From positions 1,240,001-1,304,000 of the forward strand of contig NZ_CP016094.1 in assembly GCF_001746835.1 (NCBI RefSeq): a DNA stretch of 64,000 nucleotides, read 5' to 3'. Shown here piece by piece: positions 4,548 through 14,850 of the stretch (positions within the stretch are counted from its first letter, which is position 1; each line of letters begins with the position of its first letter). The translations under genes were made by a program, and so were the position numbers. This DNA is from Lacunisphaera limnophila. Lineage in GTDB: Bacteria > Verrucomicrobiota > Verrucomicrobiia > Opitutales > Opitutaceae. Under the pieces are notes generated by a model that made no database searches, had not been told where the DNA came from, and saw only the letters and a program-made list of their open reading frames with translations.

Positions 4548-7500
4548 TCAAGCCAGCGGCTGCCGGCCCAGCGTGCCCTTGAGCGAGTCCACGTAGCCGG
4601 CGGCCGAGACCTTCGCCAGCTCGGCGCGGGCGGCGGTGAGGCGCTGCGCCAGACCGAGGTTGGTCGTGACCGCAGCATTGACCGGGTCGGCGCTGAATTT
4701 TTCCAGCGTCGCCACATGCCGCGTCCAGAGGGCGATGTCGGCCTCCTGTTTCGATTTGAGGCGGGCGGCATACCAGTCGCTGGCGAGCAGGGCCTCGCGG
4801 GTGAAGAGCGCGCGCACCTCGGGGGCGGTGGCGCCCTTGCCCTCGAAATTCCCGTGCGCCATGATGTGCAGCAGGGCCTTCAGCGGCGGGCAGGCCAGCG
4901 CGATCGTGCCGTCGGCAAAGTAGCTCTGCGCGACGCGCTCGTGCGTGGCGCAGATGTTGTCCATGCCGTCGGCAAAGGTCGCCATGTCCTGCAGCTCCGG
5001 CCGCAGCATCTCGGTCGTGAAGATGGAGTGGGGGTGGGTGAACACCCGGCCGAAGAACACGCGGGTGAACTTCGCCGTGATGCGGAACCCGAGCCGGCTG
5101 GCGAGGACCGTGCGGCCCTCCCATTCGAAATCCTGGCATTGCTCGAGGTAGCCGTGATCGTAGAGGAACTTCGGGTCGCGCTCCGCCGCCGTCATGCGGC
5201 TCCACACCTCGGGCACGAGCAGGCTCACGTCATGGTCGACGCGCGCCTTCGGGCCGACGTAACCGGCGGCCGAGATGAACGCGGGCTGCGCCGTCAGGAT
5301 CTGCGAGACCAGCGTGGCGTTCAGGTCGAAGATGGCGGGCAGGCAGTTGAACGGGCCCTTCGTCAGCGCGCCTTCGGAACCGGCGCCGGTGGTCGAGGGC
5401 GACTTGCCGGTCATGGAACTGATGTACTCCATGAACAGCTCCGGCAGCTCCATATGGTGGATCGGGCCGTAGACGGCGAGCGAACGGATGCGGGCCGCGG
5501 CCTCGGGCGGGTTGTTCCGCCGGCCGGGGACGACGGCGTCCACGGGCGTGAGCACCGGCGCGTCGGCCGCGAGGCGGCGGTGCAGGCGCGCGGCCATCTT
5601 CGAGAGATGCACACCACGGGCGTCAATCAGGTCGGGACGAAGCTGCAGATAACGCGGGTTCTTCGAGGGCTTGCCGTCCACGATGCGCGGGTGCGCGGAG
5701 GAGACGAACCAGGCCGGGCCCGGCTCGCCAGCCGCGGCGGCGCGCACCAACTGCTTCATCGGCGCGGTGTACTTCGAGAAGCCAATGGCCTCATCGACCA
5801 GCGCCCGGGCGTCGGCCTGGCCAAGCGGCTCGAAGTTGGAGATGAAGTTGTCGGGCTGGGACAGCTCCTGCTCGGTGAGCTTGTCGTAACCGCGGTGGAT
5901 GGCCTCGTCGGGCCGCTGGAAGAGCCGCGTCTCGCAGTTCTCCACGTATTTCCGCGAGGGCTCGGCGAGGGTGGCGCCCGGGACGACGACGGATGCCGTG
6001 ATGTCGTCCTCCATCTGGATCTTGTAGGCGGGGTGGTAGTCCTCGCGCAGCCCGAACACGCGCCACGCGCCATCCGCATCGTAGCCGATGCGCAGGTAGC
6101 TGGCGCTGAGCTTGCGGTTGTCGCACTTCAGCTCGTTGCCGGGGTTGCCGTTGATCAGGTCCACCGTGAAGTGGGCGCGCCAGTCATCGCCCCAGGCGGA
6201 GGCATAGTGCCGTTTCACCACGAAGACGATTTCCTTGAGATACTGCGGGATGGAGCGCAGCCAGGTGTTGTATTCCTCGGTGTACTCGCGCTCGGCCGGT
6301 GTCAGCAGCTTGATGACGGAACCGAGCGAGCGCTCGGGGCTGAGGATGGGGCGGGCGTCGGACCCGCGCTTGGCGGCGTCCCGGAAGCGCGTGGAGTAGT
6401 CGCGGTTGATCAGCGCGGCCACGCGGTCCATGTCTTGCTCGAAGTCGGCCACGAAGATCGGGCCGGGGAGGATGGCGTCGGAGATGGGTTTCGAGATCTC
6501 GGACTTGCCGCCGCCCGACACGGTGCACGGCTTGTGGCAGAGCGTGCCCTCGGCCACGGTGCCGACGAGGTGCCAGGCGCTGTGCGCCGGCGGCTGCTCG
6601 ATGTGGACCTTGTAACCGGAGGGCCGCACGTAGGTGCGGCCGGCCATGAGCGGGATCCGCTGCGGCTGGCCGTCGCGCGTCCAGCTCACCGTCTGCGCGT
6701 TCAGGTCGAAGGCCACGTCCTCGGGCACGTAGAGGATGTCGGCGAACTCCCGGTCCACCGCGTAACCCTCGGGCTTCACCTCCATCTGGTGGGCGTACTG
6801 CGTGCACACCTCGGCAAAGGAATGGCCGCGTTGCTGCACATGGAGGTTGCCGGAAAATTCCTCGCCCAGGTCGTAGGCCGGGTAGACCAGCGCACCGCCG
6901 GCGTGCTCCTCCTCGGCCAGGCCGAAGAGGTTCGCCGAGTAGCTGATCTGGGTCTTCACCTCTTTCTTGCAGTAACCGTAGTAATTGTCGGCGATGAGCG
7001 TCACGACCACGCCCGCGGCGTCGCGCGCGCAGATCTTGAAGGCGGAGCCGCCGTTGTAGCGCTCGTCCTCGTTTTTCCAGCACATGCCGTCGCGCCGCTG
7101 GCGCGCCGTGGCCTGGTCATAATGGGGCAGGCCGAGATCCTTCTTCCGGCACGTGGTGAGGTGCGGGGCCAGGATCACGCAACCCGAGTGGCCGGTCCAG
7201 CCGGCGGGATGCAGGGCGGCGTCGTTTTCCGGCAGCGTCGGGTCGCCCGCGTTGCCGAAGATGCTCTCGACGAAATCGAGGTTGGAGACCAGCGCGCCGG
7301 GGACGAAGAACCGGACCTCCATGCGCTTCTCGACGCCGAAGCCGGGGACGGCGGGGACCACAAGCGGCCGCAGCAGGAGCGAGACGAAGCAGGTGGTGCC
7401 TTGGGCGTCCGTCGCCGTGTAGGGCAGGCGGGCGAGGTCGGCCGGCGGCCGCAGGGCCTGGGCGAGCAGGCGCACAAAGGCGACCGGGGGGACGCCCAGC

Positions 7501-7856
7501 TTGTCGTCCGGCACGGGCAGGCCACCCTCCACCACATGGAACACGCCCTGGGTGGTGCGGCGGTCGCTGGCCGGGTTGTGCAACACGCCGTTGCGCAGCC
7601 GGTAGCTTTTCAGCAGCGACGACTCGTGTTGGTCGCCGGCGCGCGGCAGGGACAGGGCCCGGGCCATGCCGGCCTCGTCGAGCGCGAAGGTCTGGCCCGG
7701 CAGGCGCGGCACCGCCTCGATGGCGCCAAAGGTGTGGTCGAGCCAGGCTTGGATGCGGCCGTCCACCGGGGCGGAGCGGGGCAGGCGGCGGGGCGCCAGC
7801 TCGGTCAACCGGTTCTGGATATGTTGCAGGAGCTCGGGGCGTTGATCGTGGTTCAT
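4548..7856 (-). CDS. Probable PPi-dependent phosphoenolpyruvate carboxykinase
   Basis: The 1102-residue soluble protein resembles the large pyrophosphate-type PEP carboxykinases (about 1100-1150 residues; PEP + CO2 + Pi to oxaloacetate + PPi). Supporting features are its length, the phosphate-loop-like SGGGKSEISK near residues 447-456, and the lobe motifs YNGGSAFKIC, GYCKKEVKTQISYSANLFG and KSPSTTGAGSEGALTKGPFN. No signal peptide or membrane segment is seen. I chose the ATG at 7856 (MNHDQRPELL); a GTG at 7883 would add nine residues. It stands alone between the feo genes and a convergent-looking kinase operon. I am recalling the family from memory of its motifs; the fallback call is a conserved hypothetical protein. 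Confidence 0.55.
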   Translation of the reverse strand: MNHDQRPELLQHIQNRLTELAPRRLPRSAPVDGRIQAWLDHTFGAIEAVPRLPGQTFALDEAGMARALSLPRAGDQHESSLLKSYRLRNGVLHNPASDRRTTQGVFHVVEGGLPVPDDKLGVPPVAFVRLLAQALRPPADLARLPYTATDAQGTTCFVSLLLRPLVVPAVPGFGVEKRMEVRFFVPGALVSNLDFVESIFGNAGDPTLPENDAALHPAGWTGHSGCVILAPHLTTCRKKDLGLPHYDQATARQRRDGMCWKNEDERYNGGSAFKICARDAAGVVVTLIADNYYGYCKKEVKTQISYSANLFGLAEEEHAGGALVYPAYDLGEEFSGNLHVQQRGHSFAEVCTQYAHQMEVKPEGYAVDREFADILYVPEDVAFDLNAQTVSWTRDGQPQRIPLMAGRTYVRPSGYKVHIEQPPAHSAWHLVGTVAEGTLCHKPCTVSGGGKSEISKPISDAILPGPIFVADFEQDMDRVAALINRDYSTRFRDAAKRGSDARPILSPERSLGSVIKLLTPAEREYTEEYNTWLRSIPQYLKEIVFVVKRHYASAWGDDWRAHFTVDLINGNPGNELKCDNRKLSASYLRIGYDADGAWRVFGLREDYHPAYKIQMEDDITASVVVPGATLAEPSRKYVENCETRLFQRPDEAIHRGYDKLTEQELSQPDNFISNFEPLGQADARALVDEAIGFSKYTAPMKQLVRAAAAGEPGPAWFVSSAHPRIVDGKPSKNPRYLQLRPDLIDARGVHLSKMAARLHRRLAADAPVLTPVDAVVPGRRNNPPEAAARIRSLAVYGPIHHMELPELFMEYISSMTGKSPSTTGAGSEGALTKGPFNCLPAIFDLNATLVSQILTAQPAFISAAGYVGPKARVDHDVSLLVPEVWSRMTAAERDPKFLYDHGYLEQCQDFEWEGRTVLASRLGFRITAKFTRVFFGRVFTHPHSIFTTEMLRPELQDMATFADGMDNICATHERVAQSYFADGTIALACPPLKALLHIMAHGNFEGKGATAPEVRALFTREALLASDWYAARLKSKQEADIALWTRHVATLEKFSADPVNAAVTTNLGLAQRLTAARAELAKVSAAGYVDSLKGTLGRQPLA

Positions 7857-7932
7857 GCGCGGCGGCCTAGAAAATCCCGGCACGGCCGGACCGGTTCAAG
7901 CGCATACCGTGCCACAAGCAAGTTTGCGCGAT

Positions 7933-10308
7933 TTATGCCAACCTTTGCGCAGGGCCGTCTTGGCGCAGCGGGGCCGGGCCGGACCGGACCGCGACCACCT
8001 GATCCAGGCAGGCCGCCAGCTCGCTGAGCATGACGGGTTTACTCAGGTAGGCGCTGGCGCCGGCGGCGATACAGCGGTCCCGGTCGCCATTCATGGCCAT
8101 GGCCGTGAGCGCAATGATGGGGATATGCGCCACTTGGGGGTCGGCGCGGATCCGGCGAATGGCTTCCAACCCGTCGACGCCCGGCATCTGCACATCCATG
8201 ACGATGATATCCGGGCACAGGGCCGTGGCCATCTGCACCGCCTCCTCGCCTTGGGTGGCGAGCGAGGTCCGGTAACCCTGGGCCTGCAGGTAACCCAGCA
8301 GCATCTTCTGGTTCGCTTCGTTGTCTTCGGCCACCAACACATGGATCGCCCCGTTGGGCACCCGGGGACGGGCCGCCGGCGCCGGGACCTGACCCGGCGT
8401 CACCGCGATCGGCGGGTGGCTGAACCGGACCTGGGGCAAAAACACGCTGAACCGGCTGCCTTGCCCGGGCTCGCTGTCGAGGCTGAGCGTCCCGCCGTGC
8501 ATCGCCACCATGCGGCGCACCAAGGCGAGACCGAGGCCGGTCCCCTCGTAGCGCCGGGCCAGCCGGCTGTCGATCTGCTCAAACGGCTGGAAGATGCGGT
8601 CGAAATCCGCCCGGGCGATGCCGATGCCGGTGTCCCACACGGTGAACCGCACCCCGCCGGCCACCGGGTCCGCGACGACCTCCAGGCCCACGCGGCCGCC
8701 CTCCGGCGTGAACTTCACCGCGTTGCTCAGGAGATTCACCAGGACCTGCTTCAACCGGCGGTGGTCCGCCTGGACGGTCTCCAGCGTGGGATCGACGGTG
8801 CAGGTCAGCTCCAGCTTCTTGCGCATCGCCTGCTCCCGCACGAAGCGCACGCTTGACTGCGCCGCGGGCTCGATCGGCACCTCCTCAACCTGCAGGTCCA
8901 GCTTCCCGGCCTCGATCTTGGAGAGGTCGAGGATGTCGTTGATCAGCGCCAGCAGGTGGCGGCCGCTTTCCTCGACAATCCCCATCATCTCGAGCTGCGA
9001 CGCATTCAGCGGGCCGTGCAACTGGTCCCGCATGACCTCCGCCATGCCCAGTACCGCGTTCAGCGGCGTGCGCAGCTCGTGGCTCATCGCGGCCAGGAAC
9101 TCGTCCTTCAGCCGGGCGGCCCGCGACAGGTCCGCGTTGGCCAGCTCGGTGGCATCGCGCGCCGCGCGTAGGCTGTGCTCGGCCTCCTGCTGGCGGGTGA
9201 CATCCTCCTGGACGCCGATGTAGTGGGTCAGCAAACCGGTGGGATCGCGCACCGGCGCCACCGTCAGCTGGTTCCAGAAGCTGGTGCCGTCCTTGCGGTA
9301 GTTCTTGATCGTGACGTTGACCGGCTGACCCGTGCGGATGGCATCGCGCAAGGCGCCGACGGTTTCCGTGTCGGTGTCGTCGCCCTGGAGAAACTTGCAG
9401 TTCCGACCCATCACCTCGTCGGCCTGATAGCCGGTGAGGCGCTCGAACGCCGGGTTGCAGTAGATGATGGGCCAGTTCGGCTGCAGGGCGTCCGCGATCA
9501 CGATGCCATTGGCCGCCGCGTTGAGCGCGCGGTTGTGCACCTGGAGCGCCTGCTGCATGCGGCGCTGCTCTTCCACCCGTTCGTTCAGGGCCTGCACCGT
9601 CTTGGAGAGCGTCTCGGTCCGCTCGCGCACCTTCTCCTCCAGCGCGACCTGCACCCGCTGGCGCTCCCGATCCAGCCAGTGGCGCGCGAAGATCCGGTTG
9701 ATCTGCGAAGTGACCTGCGGGATCAGGCCCAGCATCGGCTCGTCCGGCGCATGCCGCCGGATGGAAAACAACTCGATGACCGCCATGCCGCCCACGCTCG
9801 GCGTGACCGGGAAGGCGTAACCGCACACCAGCCCGCAGGCCTGCGCCGCCTCCGCGCGGGGAAAATTGCATTCATCCGCCAGCGAGGTCAGCAGCAGCGG
9901 CTCACCGCGCGCCATGACCTGGCCCGGCAAACCGGCGCCCCGCCGCAGGGTCAGCTCCCCGGTGCGCGCCTGGAAGGTCCGGCAGCGGCCCGGGTTGGCC
10001 TCGTACCACAGTCCCAGGGGCACCAGCGTATCCGTGCCGGGTTCGTTCACGTACACGTGGCCCAGCTCCCAGCCGCCGAACTCCCCGAGCTGCTGCAGGA
10101 CGGAGGCCACCGCCGAGGTGAGCGTGGCGCTGGAATTGGCGGCGGAGGTGATCGCCGCCAGCAGCGCGAGTTCCGCCTGCCGGTCGTACAGGGCCCGCGT
10201 GCCCTGCTCGGCCAGTTGCTCGGCCTGCTCGCGGCTGAGCCGTTCCCGCTCCAGCTGCCGGCGCAACAGGGCGATCTCCTCCCGCAGCAACTCCCCCTCG
10301 GCACTCAT
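7933..10308 (-). CDS. GAF-LOV hybrid sensor histidine kinase/receiver, H-NOX partner
   Basis: The 791-residue cytoplasmic kinase has this domain order: coiled coil (8-43), GAF (about 44-204), coiled coil, LOV-type PAS (about 258-375), HisKA with SHELRTP and H410, HATPase_c, and a receiver with D705 and K757. The PAS domain carries the full LOV signature GRNCKFLQ (301-308, cysteine 304, codon 9397-9399). It also has the flavin-contacting Asn in KNYRKDG (336) and FWN (346) and the Gln in IGVQ (367), so FMN binding and blue-light adduct formation are predicted. The ATG at 10308 overlaps the H-NOX stop by four bases (ATGA). It should be the H-NOX output kinase. The phosphorelay target is not in the window. 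Confidence 0.9.
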   Translation of the reverse strand: MSAEGELLREEIALLRRQLERERLSREQAEQLAEQGTRALYDRQAELALLAAITSAANSSATLTSAVASVLQQLGEFGGWELGHVYVNEPGTDTLVPLGLWYEANPGRCRTFQARTGELTLRRGAGLPGQVMARGEPLLLTSLADECNFPRAEAAQACGLVCGYAFPVTPSVGGMAVIELFSIRRHAPDEPMLGLIPQVTSQINRIFARHWLDRERQRVQVALEEKVRERTETLSKTVQALNERVEEQRRMQQALQVHNRALNAAANGIVIADALQPNWPIIYCNPAFERLTGYQADEVMGRNCKFLQGDDTDTETVGALRDAIRTGQPVNVTIKNYRKDGTSFWNQLTVAPVRDPTGLLTHYIGVQEDVTRQQEAEHSLRAARDATELANADLSRAARLKDEFLAAMSHELRTPLNAVLGMAEVMRDQLHGPLNASQLEMMGIVEESGRHLLALINDILDLSKIEAGKLDLQVEEVPIEPAAQSSVRFVREQAMRKKLELTCTVDPTLETVQADHRRLKQVLVNLLSNAVKFTPEGGRVGLEVVADPVAGGVRFTVWDTGIGIARADFDRIFQPFEQIDSRLARRYEGTGLGLALVRRMVAMHGGTLSLDSEPGQGSRFSVFLPQVRFSHPPIAVTPGQVPAPAARPRVPNGAIHVLVAEDNEANQKMLLGYLQAQGYRTSLATQGEEAVQMATALCPDIIVMDVQMPGVDGLEAIRRIRADPQVAHIPIIALTAMAMNGDRDRCIAAGASAYLSKPVMLSELAACLDQVVAVRSGPAPLRQDGPAQRLA

Positions 10309-10856
10309 GCGCCCCCCGCTGGCGCGAACCGGATGCGGAGCTCGCACTGCGGGTCGCCGCGGTGCATGCACTGGGTGTGGTCGATTGTGGCGCTCTCGCC
10401 AAAGTGGTCCGCCGCGCCGAGCAAAAGGCCCTCGGCGAAGCTGCACATCTTCCGTTTCGACCGGTAATGCATCACCAGCACCTCCGGCGAGGAGGTGTCG
10501 AAGTCAAAGTTGGGGACGTCGGCGCCGGGATACATCTTGCGCACCTCGGGATGGATCACGCTGTTCAGCGTCAGCACAAAGCTTCGCGCGTCGGTGTGCG
10601 GCGTGAACACCCGGGCGTAATGCTGGGCCAGCAGCGGGATCGCCCCGCGCCCGAACCACCGCACGATGTCGTTCGGTGGGAGGCCGAGCTGGCGCGAGGC
10701 GGCGCCGACGATCTTGAACAATTCCGCGTCCTCATAGCTCCCGAGCGAGGTGTACGCGCCCTGCAGCCCCGCCTCGGTCAACAGCGCGTCCCAGGTTTTT
10801 TCGCCGTATTGCTGGGCGACCACCTGGTGGAGGAGATGGAATACGATGCCTTTCAT
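10305..10856 (-). CDS. H-NOX heme nitric-oxide sensor protein
   Basis: This 183-residue stand-alone H-NOX (HNOB) protein should bind heme and sense NO. With the start at 10856 (MKGIVFHLLHQ), the key residues fall at canonical positions: proximal His at 102, Pro at 115, and the heme-propionate YxSxR motif as Tyr131, Ser133 and Arg135. An upstream start at 10877 would shift this numbering, which favours 10856. The gene is the first of a two-gene unit with the GAF-LOV kinase and overlaps it by four bases. In known systems H-NOX inhibits or tunes such a kinase when NO binds. Whether O2 is excluded cannot be judged from sequence alone. Confidence 0.93.
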   Translation of the reverse strand: MKGIVFHLLHQVVAQQYGEKTWDALLTEAGLQGAYTSLGSYEDAELFKIVGAASRQLGLPPNDIVRWFGRGAIPLLAQHYARVFTPHTDARSFVLTLNSVIHPEVRKMYPGADVPNFDFDTSSPEVLVMHYRSKRKMCSFAEGLLLGAADHFGESATIDHTQCMHRGDPQCELRIRFAPAGGA

Positions 10857-10947
10857 GGGAAAATGCGGGGCTGGCACCAGTGGATGCCGTGAGTCCAGCC
10901 CGTGGTCAACGACCCAAACCCCGCCCGCTTGAGGGGAAAATTACGGC

Positions 10948-10978
10948 CGGGGCCAAGACCCGGTTGTCTTTGGCCCCG
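10948..10978. promoter_or_regulatory. Palindrome in the H-NOX/MDR divergent intergenic region
   Basis: An inverted repeat with arms GGGGCCAAGAC and GTCTTTGGCCCC (one bulge, 6-base centre) lies between the divergent H-NOX and oxidoreductase genes, about 20 bases before the latter's ATG. It could be an operator or a transcript hairpin. No T-run follows, so it is not a typical terminator. Confidence 0.4.
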
Positions 10979-10998
10979 CGGGCGGTAGCGTCCCCGCC

Positions 10999-12000
10999 AT
11001 GCAAGCCGCCCTCCTTCGCGCCACGAATGAACCCGTCACCGTGCAACCGGCCCCCGATCCGGTCCCCGCCGCCGGCCAGGCCGTGGTCCGGCTCCGCGCC
11101 GCCGCCCTCAACCACCGCGACCTGTGGATCCAGCTCGGCCAGTATGCCGGCATCAAGCTGCCGCTGATTCCCGGTTCCGATGGCGCGGGGGTGGTGACGG
11201 CTGTCGGCGCCCCCGGCGACGACGCCTGGTCCGGCCGCGAGGTCATCATCAATCCCTCCCTCGACTGGGGCGACGACCCGCGTACGCAGGGCCCGGGTTT
11301 CCGCATCCTCGGCCTGCCCGACGCCGGCACCTTCGCGGAACAGATCGCCATCCCGGTGGCCAACCTCGCCTCCAAGCCCGCCCACCTCACCTGGGAGCAG
11401 GCGGCCGCCCTGCCGCTCGCCGGGCTCACGGCCTGGCGCGCGCTGTTCACCCGCGCCGGCCTGCAGTCCGGCGAAAAAATCCTCATCACCGGCATCGGTG
11501 GCGGCGCCGCCCTGTTCGCGCTGCAGTTCGCCGTGGCGGCCGGCGCCCAGGTGTGGGTCACGTCCAGCTCGCCCGAAAAAATCGCCCGGGCCCAAACCCT
11601 GGGCGCGGCCGGCGGGGTCAATTACCGGGACACCGACTGGCCCGCGACTCTCACCCGCGCGGCGGGAGGGCCGTTCGACGTCGTCCTCGACAGCGCCGGC
11701 GGCGCGGGCTTCGGGCCGCTGATCGAGCTCGTGCGGCCCGGCGGCCGCCTCGTCTTCTTCGGCGCGACCACGGGCCAACCCCCGGGGCTCGACCTCCGCA
11801 AATGTTTCTTCCGCCAGCTCACCCTGCTCGGCACCACCATGGGCTCGCCGGCTGACTTCGCGGGCATGACGGCGTTCGTGGCGCGACACCGGATCGTGCC
11901 CGTCGTCGACCGCGTGTTTCCCCTGGCGGAGACGGACCAGGCCCTCCGCCACATGGCCGCGGGGGCGCAGTTCGGCAAGATCGTGCTCGCTACGGGATGA
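10999..12000 (+). CDS. MDR-family alcohol dehydrogenase/quinone oxidoreductase-like protein
   Basis: The 333-residue protein belongs to the medium-chain dehydrogenase/reductase superfamily. It has the N-terminal GroES-like fold (ALNHRDLWIQLGQY, PLIPGSDGAGVV), then a Rossmann domain with the dinucleotide loop ITGIGGGAALFALQ. Canonical structural-zinc cysteines are not apparent, so it resembles the zinc-independent quinone oxidoreductase branch. The substrate cannot be deduced. It is transcribed away from the H-NOX gene, and its last 11 bases overlap the 3' end of the convergent membrane-protein gene. Confidence 0.85.
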   Translation: MQAALLRATNEPVTVQPAPDPVPAAGQAVVRLRAAALNHRDLWIQLGQYAGIKLPLIPGSDGAGVVTAVGAPGDDAWSGREVIINPSLDWGDDPRTQGPGFRILGLPDAGTFAEQIAIPVANLASKPAHLTWEQAAALPLAGLTAWRALFTRAGLQSGEKILITGIGGGAALFALQFAVAAGAQVWVTSSSPEKIARAQTLGAAGGVNYRDTDWPATLTRAAGGPFDVVLDSAGGAGFGPLIELVRPGGRLVFFGATTGQPPGLDLRKCFFRQLTLLGTTMGSPADFAGMTAFVARHRIVPVVDRVFPLAETDQALRHMAAGAQFGKIVLATG

Positions 12001-12530: not shown

Positions 12531-12968
12531 ATGAGCCAACCCGCCCCCTCTCTCGATCACTACCTCTCCACCCTGGGCGCACCCGGGCGTGAGGCCCCGC
12601 CCAGCGTCCACCTCGAGCGCGGCGCCGCCTGCGTGCAGCCCGCCGATCTGGCGCGCCTCCGGCGCATGCTGCCGGCCCTCCGCTCCAAGACCGCGCGGAT
12701 CACCGATTCCACCGTCCTGCCGCGGCGCCTGGCCATCCTGATGCAATTCGTGGCCGAATCATCCCCCGCGGAGGACTCGCCGGTCCTGCGTGAGGCCGCC
12801 TTCGCCCTCTTCTACTTTCTCAAGGGCTACGACCTGATCCCCGACACCGTGCCGGAGATCGGCCTGCTCGATGACGCGCTGCTGGTGGAGACCGTCTTCC
12901 GGCGCCATGCCCCCGAACTGCGGGCCCACTGGGCCGCCCGGGGCCGGGTCTGGGCGGAAAACATCTGA
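12531..12968 (+). CDS. DUF1232 (YkvA-like) protein
   Basis: The 145-residue product ends in the DUF1232 signature FYFLKGYDLIPDTVPEIGLLDD, a motif shared with YkvA-like proteins of unknown role. The N-terminal half is charged and predicted soluble. The ATG at 12531 (MSQPAPSLDHYL) was chosen over an upstream in-frame ATG at 12360, because the upstream part lies inside the divergent membrane gene. The terC ATG follows the stop by 10 bases, so it is likely the first gene of a five-gene operon ending in sbtB. Confidence 0.8.
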   Translation: MSQPAPSLDHYLSTLGAPGREAPPSVHLERGAACVQPADLARLRRMLPALRSKTARITDSTVLPRRLAILMQFVAESSPAEDSPVLREAAFALFYFLKGYDLIPDTVPEIGLLDDALLVETVFRRHAPELRAHWAARGRVWAENI

Positions 12969-12978
12969 GACACCTTTC

Positions 12979-13992
12979 ATGACCTATATATCTCTCTTCC
13001 CCTTCGCCGACTACTGGTGGTTCTACGGCCTGTTCACGCTCTTTGTGCTGGGCATGCTGGCCCTCGACCTCGGCGTCTTCCACCGCGACGCCCACGTGGT
13101 GGGTTTCAAGGAGGCCCTCGGCTGGAGCGTGTTCTGGATCAGCCTCGCGCTGGTCTTCGGCTACGGGCTCTACCAGTACGGACTGTATAAGTTCCCGCTC
13201 GATCCCCGCCTGGCCGGCCTCGACCACGCCGCGCTCGCGCGCCAGACCGGACTCGAATACCTGACCGGCTTCGTCGTCGAGAAATCCCTGTCGGTGGACA
13301 ACATCTTCGTGTTCGTGGTGATCTTCACCTACTTCGGCGTGCCCGCGAAGTACCAGCACCGGGTCCTCTTCTACGGCATCCTCGGCGCCCTGATCTTCCG
13401 GATCATCTTCATCAGCCTCGGCGCGGCGCTGATGCAGTTCCACTGGGTCATCTGGCTCTTCGGCGGTTTCCTCATCCTGACCGGCCTGAAGATCCTCTTC
13501 GCCCCGGAAAAACCCATGGATCCCGAGAAGAACCCGGTGATCCGGCTCCTCCGCAAACTGGTCCCGGTGACGCCGAACCTGCACGGGCAGAGCTTCCTGA
13601 CCAAGATTGACGGGGTCTGGCACGCGACCCCGCTCTTCGTGTGTCTGGTCTTCATGGAGCTGACCGACATCGTCTTCGCGGTCGACTCGGTGCCGGCGAT
13701 CTTCGCCCTGACGAAGGAGCCGCTGATCGTTTTCACGTCGAATGTCTTCGCGATCCTCGGCCTGCGGGCGCTGTTCTTCCTGCTCGCGGGGGTGATGCAC
13801 AAGTTCCGCTTCCTCAAGTACGGCCTCGGCCTGATCCTGGTCTTCGTCGGCCTGAAGATGGTGTGGCTGAACGAGGCCTTCGGCGGCAAGTTCCCGATCA
13901 CCTGGTCGCTGGGCATCATCGGCGCGCTCCTGACCGCCTCCATCGTGGCCTCCCTGGCCATCCCGGTCCGGTCCGCCCCCGCGAAAAGCTGA
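12979..13992 (+). CDS. TerC/Alx family integral membrane protein
   Basis: The 337-residue protein is a TerC-family membrane protein with about eight to nine helices. Diagnostic segments are EYLTGFVVEKSLSVDNIFVFVVIF and VFMELTDIVFAVDSVPAIFALT, whose acidic residues in helices are thought to bind metal. Family members have been linked to Mn2+ handling, metalation of exported enzymes, pH response and tellurite resistance. No yybP-ykoY riboswitch-like leader fits in the 10-base gap upstream. Its neighbours (ion channel, bicarbonate transporter) suggest an ion-homeostasis operon. The exact ion is unknown. Confidence 0.92.
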   Translation: MTYISLFPFADYWWFYGLFTLFVLGMLALDLGVFHRDAHVVGFKEALGWSVFWISLALVFGYGLYQYGLYKFPLDPRLAGLDHAALARQTGLEYLTGFVVEKSLSVDNIFVFVVIFTYFGVPAKYQHRVLFYGILGALIFRIIFISLGAALMQFHWVIWLFGGFLILTGLKILFAPEKPMDPEKNPVIRLLRKLVPVTPNLHGQSFLTKIDGVWHATPLFVCLVFMELTDIVFAVDSVPAIFALTKEPLIVFTSNVFAILGLRALFFLLAGVMHKFRFLKYGLGLILVFVGLKMVWLNEAFGGKFPITWSLGIIGALLTASIVASLAIPVRSAPAKS

Positions 13993-13998
13993 GCCGGC

Positions 13999-14850
13999 AT
14001 GGTCGCACTCGCCCACCGTCTGGTCGCCCACCGGGTTTTCCAAGGGTTCATCATTGGCGTCATCCTCCTCGCCGGCGTGCTGGCCGGCGTGGAGACGGAT
14101 CCCGCGTTGGTGACCGCATGGTCGCCGTGGCTGCACTGGCTCAACCGGGCGATCCTCGCGGTCTTCACGTTGGAAATCCTGCTCAAGCTCACCGCCTGCG
14201 GGCGCGAGCCGCGGCGGTATTTTGCCGACGGCTGGAATGTGTTCGACTGCCTGATCGTCGCGCTCTGCTTCCTGCCCGCCGCCGGGCCCTTCGCCGCCGT
14301 GCTGCGCCTGTCCCGGGTGCTCCGTCTGCTCCGGCTGGTGAGTGCGCTGCCGAAGCTCCAGCTGCTCGTCGGCGCCCTGTTGAAGAGCCTGTCGGCGATG
14401 GGTTACGTTTCGCTCCTGCTGGCCCTGATGTTTTATGTGTACGCCGTCGCCGGCGTCCACCTGTTTGGCCAGGCCGACCCGGCGGATTTCGGTTCGCTGC
14501 CCGCGGCCTTGTTCACCCTTTTCCGCGTGGTCACGCTCGACAACTGGGGGGATGCGTTTGAGCGCGTCGCGACGGCCGTGCCTGGCCTCGTGGTGACGTT
14601 GTACTTCGTCACCTTCATCGTGCTCGGCACGATGATCATCCTGAATCTCTTCATCGGCATCGTCATGAACAGCATGGCGGAGATGCATCGGGAGCTGGAG
14701 GAGAATCGGGCACCGGCCGCACCGGCCGCCACCGTGACGGCGGCCCTGGACGCGGTGGAGACCCAGCTGGCTGCCTTGCAGCGTCAGGTGCGGGCGGCCC
14801 GCGTTGACGCGGGGCGTTTGGTCCCACCCACGCCGGGCGCAACCGACTGA
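13999..14850 (+). CDS. Single-domain voltage-gated cation channel (BacNav-like)
   Basis: The 283-residue protein has the 6-TM plan of bacterial NaChBac-type channels, which assemble as tetramers. S4 carries the regular arginines R103, R106, R109 and R112 (LRLSRVLRLLRLV). The pore loop contains TLDNWGD (179-185), where Na+ channels of this family usually read TLESW; the Asp recalls Ca2+-selective engineered variants. S6 is VTFIVLGTMIILNLFIGIVM, with the conserved Asn. A C-terminal coiled coil (about 245-268) fits tetramer formation. It starts 6 bases after terC and ends 24 bases before sbtA. Confidence 0.9.
   Translation: MVALAHRLVAHRVFQGFIIGVILLAGVLAGVETDPALVTAWSPWLHWLNRAILAVFTLEILLKLTACGREPRRYFADGWNVFDCLIVALCFLPAAGPFAAVLRLSRVLRLLRLVSALPKLQLLVGALLKSLSAMGYVSLLLALMFYVYAVAGVHLFGQADPADFGSLPAALFTLFRVVTLDNWGDAFERVATAVPGLVVTLYFVTFIVLGTMIILNLFIGIVMNSMAEMHRELEENRAPAAPAATVTAALDAVETQLAALQRQVRAARVDAGRLVPPTPGATD

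Follow-up and report, generated by a model that had tools for sequence, protein, structure and literature searches.

The 64,000-nucleotide stretch analysed here (the window: positions 1,240,001 to 1,304,000 of the forward strand of contig NZ_CP016094.1, assembly GCF_001746835.1) comes from Lacunisphaera limnophila, a member of the Opitutaceae within the Verrucomicrobiota, and encodes on its minus strand an H-NOX protein followed immediately by a hybrid histidine kinase whose LOV domain keeps the key photochemical residues. The parts (H-NOX, LOV and kinase) and their pairing are well supported by the sequence. The two genes probably constitute one signalling unit, with H-NOX and LOV inputs acting on the same kinase, and we lean slightly towards a broader proposal in which one phosphorelay would integrate nitric oxide (NO), or thiol oxidation, with blue light, and in which a helix at the start of the kinase would be the docking code of one large branch of H-NOX proteins. 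Were this correct, the pair would be, as far as found, the first case of a photoreceptor built into an H-NOX circuit, and a natural two-input gate bringing gas and light to bear on one kinase, each input being testable in vitro.

The H-NOX and LOV kinase pair

The H-NOX gene (10305-10856, minus strand) encodes 183 amino acids, and the kinase gene (7933-10308, minus strand) encodes 791, arranged as helix-GAF-LOV-HisKA-HATPase-receiver. The two are co-oriented and share four bases (10305-10308, ATGA) in which the stop of H-NOX overlaps the start of the kinase, as an earlier reading made from the sequence alone (the sequence-only reading) had recorded. Co-orientation and overlap are joined, as evidence for a cognate pair, by the shared N-terminal helix and GAF domain and by intact active-site residues in the kinase and receiver (His410, Asp705 and Lys757).

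The Pfam model PF07700 (HNOB) covers the H-NOX protein over its full length (profile positions 1-163 of 163, E 1.9e-41, 142.1 bits against a cut-off of 25.5), and among solved structures 2kii and 4u99 are closest to it in sequence (E 2e-31). The heme-related residues His102, Pro115 and Tyr131-x-Ser133-x-Arg135 are all in place, exactly where the sequence-only reading had put them, and are invariant in all 21 rows of an H-NOX alignment (A4). The protein has neither Tyr nor Trp beyond residue 131, and hence no distal Tyr; H-NOX proteins of this kind do not bind O2 stably, according to the accessible part of PMC12329717. By its residues the protein would be of the NO-selective type, with heme and NO binding predicted. 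The zinc-ligand positions are also filled (Cys138, His160, Cys163 and Cys171), and zinc binding at this site of three Cys and one His is predicted. The same portion of that source describes a zinc site of three Cys and one His or Gln in some H-NOX proteins (groups 2/3), and a response of the site to thiol oxidation in Caulobacter and V. cholerae (PMC12329717). Given the presence of the site and the Caulobacter precedent, the input to H-NOX here may be NO, thiol oxidation or both.

The domain order proposed for the kinase by the sequence-only reading (GAF, LOV, kinase, receiver) was borne out by Pfam, which finds GAF, PAS, HisKA, HATPase and receiver domains in succession. The GAF domain spans residues 61-203 (9700-10128, minus strand, as are all features of the kinase; GAF_2, E 6.5e-8) and the LOV domain residues 260-371 (9196-9531; PAS_9, E 6.7e-22). 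These are followed by HisKA with the phospho-acceptor His410 (residues 401-468; 8905-9108), HATPase_c (residues 515-626; 8431-8766; PF02518, E 2e-30) and the receiver with Asp705 and Lys757 (residues 657-767; 8008-8340; PF00072, E 2.5e-25). The signature GRNCKFLQ, also reported from the sequence alone, lies at residues 301-308 (9385-9408) and places Cys304 at the adduct-forming position. Polar flavin contacts would be provided by Asn303, Gln308, Arg321, Asn336, Asn346 and Gln367, the last five at offsets of +4, +17, +32, +42 and +63 from Cys304, which is the spacing of oat phot1 LOV2. The nearest solved LOV domain by sequence (9vf7, E 8.3e-42) belongs to a kinase of Meiothermus ruber, and an AlphaFold2 model of residues 251-395 (mean pLDDT 90.3, from a nine-row alignment with PAS rows) superimposes on 9vf7_A with a TM-score of 0.92 and a root mean square deviation of 0.7 Å in Foldseek. 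The best 50 of the 1174 Foldseek rows bear LOV-type titles, and the structural matches include a LOV-PAS-HK construct of Brucella LOV-HK. In a model of residues 1-400 the helix and GAF were good and the LOV part poor. Residues 255-378 match an NCBIfam model for blue-light histidine kinases at E 2.4e-40, well short of its whole-protein cut-off. A chance match or pseudo-LOV was rejected on the grounds of residue spacing, fold and PDB matches, and the domain is predicted from these features to bind flavin and to form a light-driven adduct at Cys304.

Rarity of the combination

The sequence-only reading had suggested searching genomes for LOV kinases beside H-NOX genes. For this, 183 neighbourhoods other than that in the window were assembled, every one of which holds an H-NOX open reading frame (ORF): 23 from the same order, the best 80 of at least 556 confirmed matches in a contig scan, 52 drawn from three sources (the phylum, the Novosphingobium class, and the order to which locus L048, a close relative described below, belongs), and 28 from the phylum of L120, Cyanobacteriota by its title. 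Removal of L121 and L127, copies of L035 and L034, left 181; L040/L042 and L073/L074, which share some DNA as close species, were kept. Flanks extended for about 5-6 kb, and some loci end at contig ends (e.g. L059 and L114). The LOV protein motif G-x-N-C-[RKQHN]-[FLYM]-[LMI] occurred in an open frame in none of the 181 neighbourhoods, the best 80 of at least 556 among them, and the sole match to the expression (L097) was out of frame and contained stops. Partners with the same LOV domain were looked for within the order and not found: the well-aligned partner PAS domains of its 23 loci carry a GxxPGxxLQGPxTD-like sequence without the Cys. Six partners in the order (L029 and L033-L037) have PAS domains that are LOV-like, again with the GxxPGxxLQGPxTD-like sequence and no Cys.

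Each half of the pair is uncommon in its own right. The source genome, a single contig of 4.2 Mb, contains just one H-NOX, located in this pair, and a degenerate LOV DNA motif has one site in those 4.2 Mb, within this kinase, against none for the reversed pattern as a control. Of the 372 genomes of the order, 23 carry an H-NOX, as do 15 of 288 in a sample of the phylum, and the LOV DNA motif was found in five of 200 genomes of the family at six sites, with the source genome included throughout. The five other LOV domains in the family are 42-53% identical to this one, the closest being L242 at 53%.

A conserved helix in H-NOX partners

The N-terminus of the kinase was modelled as a continuous helix over residues 3-59, and Pfam finds no match in its first 60 residues. 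When a profile was made from the N-termini of the partners of near relatives, it also picked up many other H-NOX partners through roughly their first 45 residues. An iterated model has 36 columns with the consensus ERLERRLERERAARKEAERLLEEKSRELYEANQEL, and matches residues 12-47 of the kinase (10168-10275, minus strand). It was found in 105 of 148 ORFs directly downstream of an H-NOX gene (own included) and in three of 7235 other ORFs across 154 loci. All three proved on inspection to be H-NOX-linked: in L114 a contig edge truncates the partner, in L040 a short ORF comes immediately after H-NOX, and in L061 the start assigned to the partner is too early. The distribution of this helix among loci suggests that it is the H-NOX docking site. 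Guo is said to have mapped an H-NOX/kinase interface in 2018 by hydrogen/deuterium methods. No description of the helix was found among titles and abstract openings of the open-licence literature, which is weak evidence.

A whole-genome search (alignment A2, in which two of 22 rows have end residues not copied from the loci) covered 37 genomes picked for holding an H-NOX, and returned 39 helix matches in 35 of them. Thirty-six lie beside an H-NOX (19 of 20 at fetched loci and 17 of the 19 others, judged in part by coordinates), and the source genome has exactly one match, in this kinase. In a Duganella genome (L318 3407-5233, minus strand; L093 6001-6552) the H-NOX lacks a co-oriented neighbour and the sole helix protein, encoded elsewhere, is a PAS-GGDEF-EAL protein, a candidate unlinked H-NOX partner.

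Partners bearing the helix have histidine kinase, GGDEF-EAL, SpoIIE or HD outputs; one of them (L104 3391-4703) combines the helix with a GAF domain and an HD output domain. Among the 20 partners (own included) whose H-NOX shares at least 43% identity with that of the window, 19 have the helix, 17 an N-terminal GAF and 16 both; L059 and L061, whose H-NOX has no called partner, were left out of the 20, and Pfam adds a GAF in L052. Relay of the signal through the GAF domain is suggested by these architectures. The GAF alone as the docking part was rejected, as many helix-bearing partners have no GAF after the helix; a helix-less branch of 38 H-NOX rows, in which 15 partners have an internal GAF, likewise counts against it. 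That the helix serves H-NOX proteins in general was also rejected, given its near-absence from Cyanobacteriota and its confinement to one side of the midpoint of the H-NOX tree. Loci titled Vampirovibrio (L066) and Caenarcanales (L120) do carry it. Leaving the question of light aside, the helix allows H-NOX partners to be recognised from sequence, perhaps including unlinked ones such as the candidate in the Duganella genome, and it suggests a specific way in which a single sensor family could control outputs so unlike one another.

Relatives of the pair and origin of the LOV domain

In a tree of 154 H-NOX rows (rooted at the midpoint, with the bootstrap not settled and several long branches flagged), all 105 rows with a helix-bearing partner fall among the 116 on one side of the midpoint, and none among the other 38. 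The H-NOX of the window groups with L048, L213 and L214 (support 100/83) within a group of 21 rows (92/91), in which 16 partners have both helix and GAF. L048, a metagenome-assembled genome (MAG) under the doubtful label Klebsiella pneumoniae, is the closest full-length relative among the matches listed. Its H-NOX is 65% identical to that of the window (alignment A4) and its kinase is arranged as helix-GAF-PAS-HisKA-HATPase-receiver; it differs in that its PAS domain lacks the LOV motif and further kinase and receiver genes lie downstream. The two kinases are 44% identical over 769 columns, ranging by segment from 58% (HisKA-HATPase), 53% (receiver), 44% (helix) and 37% (GAF) to 28% in the LOV/PAS slot, and higher LOV identities are found elsewhere (53% in L242 and 59% over 103 columns in 9vf8). 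The simplest history would be replacement of PAS by LOV in an existing H-NOX partner; alternatively, a GAF-kinase of the kind seen in Bradyrhizobium (L049-L051) may have gained LOV by insertion. A Thermoplasmatales archaeon MAG (L062 3044-5363), in which a binning error is possible, has an H-NOX 48% identical to that of the window and an adjoining helix-GAF-PAS kinase.

Proposed mechanism and alternative explanations

In the proposed unit, H-NOX would bind NO at the heme ligated by His102, might also respond, through its zinc site, to thiol oxidation, and would dock on the helix at the N-terminus of the hybrid kinase, its signal passing through the GAF domain next to the helix. The LOV domain, which follows the GAF and precedes the phospho-acceptor helices, would bind flavin and form the Cys304 adduct under blue light, and the adduct would shift the same coiled-coil linker leading to HisKA. 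Phosphorylation of His410, followed by transfer to Asp705 and onwards to an unlinked phosphotransfer protein and regulator, would then report the combined state; we infer the direction and logic of both inputs. Such a kinase would have a portable helix-GAF adaptor at one end and LOV beside the catalytic helices, with the docking code common to kinase, cyclic di-GMP (c-di-GMP), SpoIIE phosphatase and HD partners. If the helix is a docking code, any output module fused behind it would come under H-NOX control. Of the two-input idea put forward by the sequence-only reading, a LOV domain with its key residues in the apparent cognate partner kinase of an NO-type H-NOX has stood, but with the zinc site present the gas input may not be NO alone.

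Several observations weigh against integration of gas and light through a helix-docked H-NOX. The pair was found in one genome only, none of the seven other genomes listed for the genus having an H-NOX, and the ORFs scanned next to it include neither a phosphotransfer protein nor a regulator. All expected flavin-contacting polar residues had been claimed from the sequence alone; the six listed above are present, but Lys305 sits at a contact that most LOV domains fill with Arg. As to the helix, 43 of the 148 H-NOX-adjacent ORFs lack it, as do 27 of the 28 Cyanobacteriota neighbourhoods, the other having one weak match (L315). Three of the 39 genome-wide matches are away from any H-NOX (weak matches in G1248 C46 and G884 C106, and the strong match in the Duganella genome). 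The model was, moreover, iterated on the same loci on which it was later counted, and two checks therefore matter: its first round (12 seeds) matched 61 adjacent ORFs, seeds included, versus three others, and none of 7383 reversed ORFs matched. Lastly, cysteine oxidation, not NO, made the Caulobacter H-NOX inhibit HnoK, as given in the accessible part of PMC12329717.

This Caulobacter result, along with the full set of zinc ligands in the window, also speaks for a redox explanation, under which the LOV flavin and the zinc-thiol site would sense oxidative or nitrosative stress and any effect of light would be incidental. Flavin photoreduction can indeed signal in LOV proteins that lack the Cys (PMC5645311 and PMC4682037, as far as the accessible text of each goes); yet a purely redox-sensing flavin-PAS domain need not keep the Cys, and here the canonical photochemistry residues, Cys304 included, are kept. 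We regard this explanation as unlikely. More doubtful still is that the LOV domain is structurally intact yet uncoupled, leaving H-NOX alone in control of the kinase. The relatives L049-L051 and L102 are helix-GAF-kinases in which no PAS was found (by Pfam too for L049 and L102), and the PAS/LOV slot thus appears dispensable for H-NOX control. Against this, the photochemical residues are kept although the domain, being unlike its counterpart in the nearest relative, may have been acquired later, and it directly precedes HisKA, with the Brucella construct noted above among its structural matches. There is, finally, very little likelihood that H-NOX has no action on this kinase, the overlap being incidental and each protein having other partners. 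Gene overlap is by itself weak evidence of partnership, but the kinase carries the very helix that adjoins H-NOX in nearly all of its genome-wide matches, and the single match in a genome with a single H-NOX is this kinase.

Comparison with known systems

The pair resembles the H-NOX/HnoK pairs of Vibrio, Shewanella and Caulobacter, in which an NO-type H-NOX lies beside a kinase gene. The zinc ligands are the same in Vibrio (L073), Neptuniibacter (L063) and the sequence of the Shewanella structure, and the short partners at Vibrio, Neptuniibacter and Pseudoalteromonas loci begin with the same helix. The Vibrio and Neptuniibacter partners, at 315 and 320 amino acids, have only HisKA and ATPase domains by Pfam, whereas the kinase of the window adds GAF, LOV and receiver. 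LOV upstream of HisKA is shared with LOV histidine kinases such as Brucella LOV-HK, from which the present kinase differs in having a helix and GAF before LOV. Caulobacter LovK is another LOV histidine kinase, and we know of none with an H-NOX partner. Nearest among solved LOV domains, by both sequence and fold, is that of Meiothermus ruber Mrub_1259 (9vf7 and 9vf8), a comparison that concerns the LOV part only.

H-NOX proteins also control separate c-di-GMP enzymes, as in Legionella (Hnox1/Lpg1057), Dinoroseobacter and Shewanella woodyi, according to the accessible text of PMC8846402. GGDEF-EAL partners at L053, L058, L060 and L065 share the helix, and all but L060 the GAF as well; they differ in having no LOV motif, and the output in the window is a phosphorelay. 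That source treats H-NOX and LOV separately in its accessible part (PMC8846402), and the words LOV and light are absent from the text of a paper on Caulobacter H-NOX (PMC10746521). No report pairing H-NOX with LOV was found among titles and abstract openings of the open-licence literature, in keeping with the sequence-only reading, which was aware of no H-NOX partner kinase with an intact LOV domain; this absence is weak evidence, since only open-licence papers were covered.

Genomic surroundings

The H-NOX/kinase unit looks bicistronic, as a terminator-like stem (7876-7894, minus strand, from a consensus scan only) stands directly after the kinase, with the gene of a pyrophosphate-dependent phosphoenolpyruvate (PEP) carboxykinase beyond it, and a divergent zinc-binding dehydrogenase gene lies upstream of the pair. 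The same scan gave four terminator-like sites in 7600-11100 versus a mean of 1.4 after shuffling. The PEP carboxykinase (4548-7850, minus strand, 1100 amino acids) matches 8e1u and 6k31 at E 0, and no Pfam or NCBIfam model at the thresholds applied. On the plus strand, a TerC/Alx family metal homeostasis membrane protein is encoded at 12871-13992, with TIGR03718 scoring above its cut-off. Rfam gave no match within the window at gathering score, and so none at this gene, which is followed by an ion channel gene at 13999-14850.

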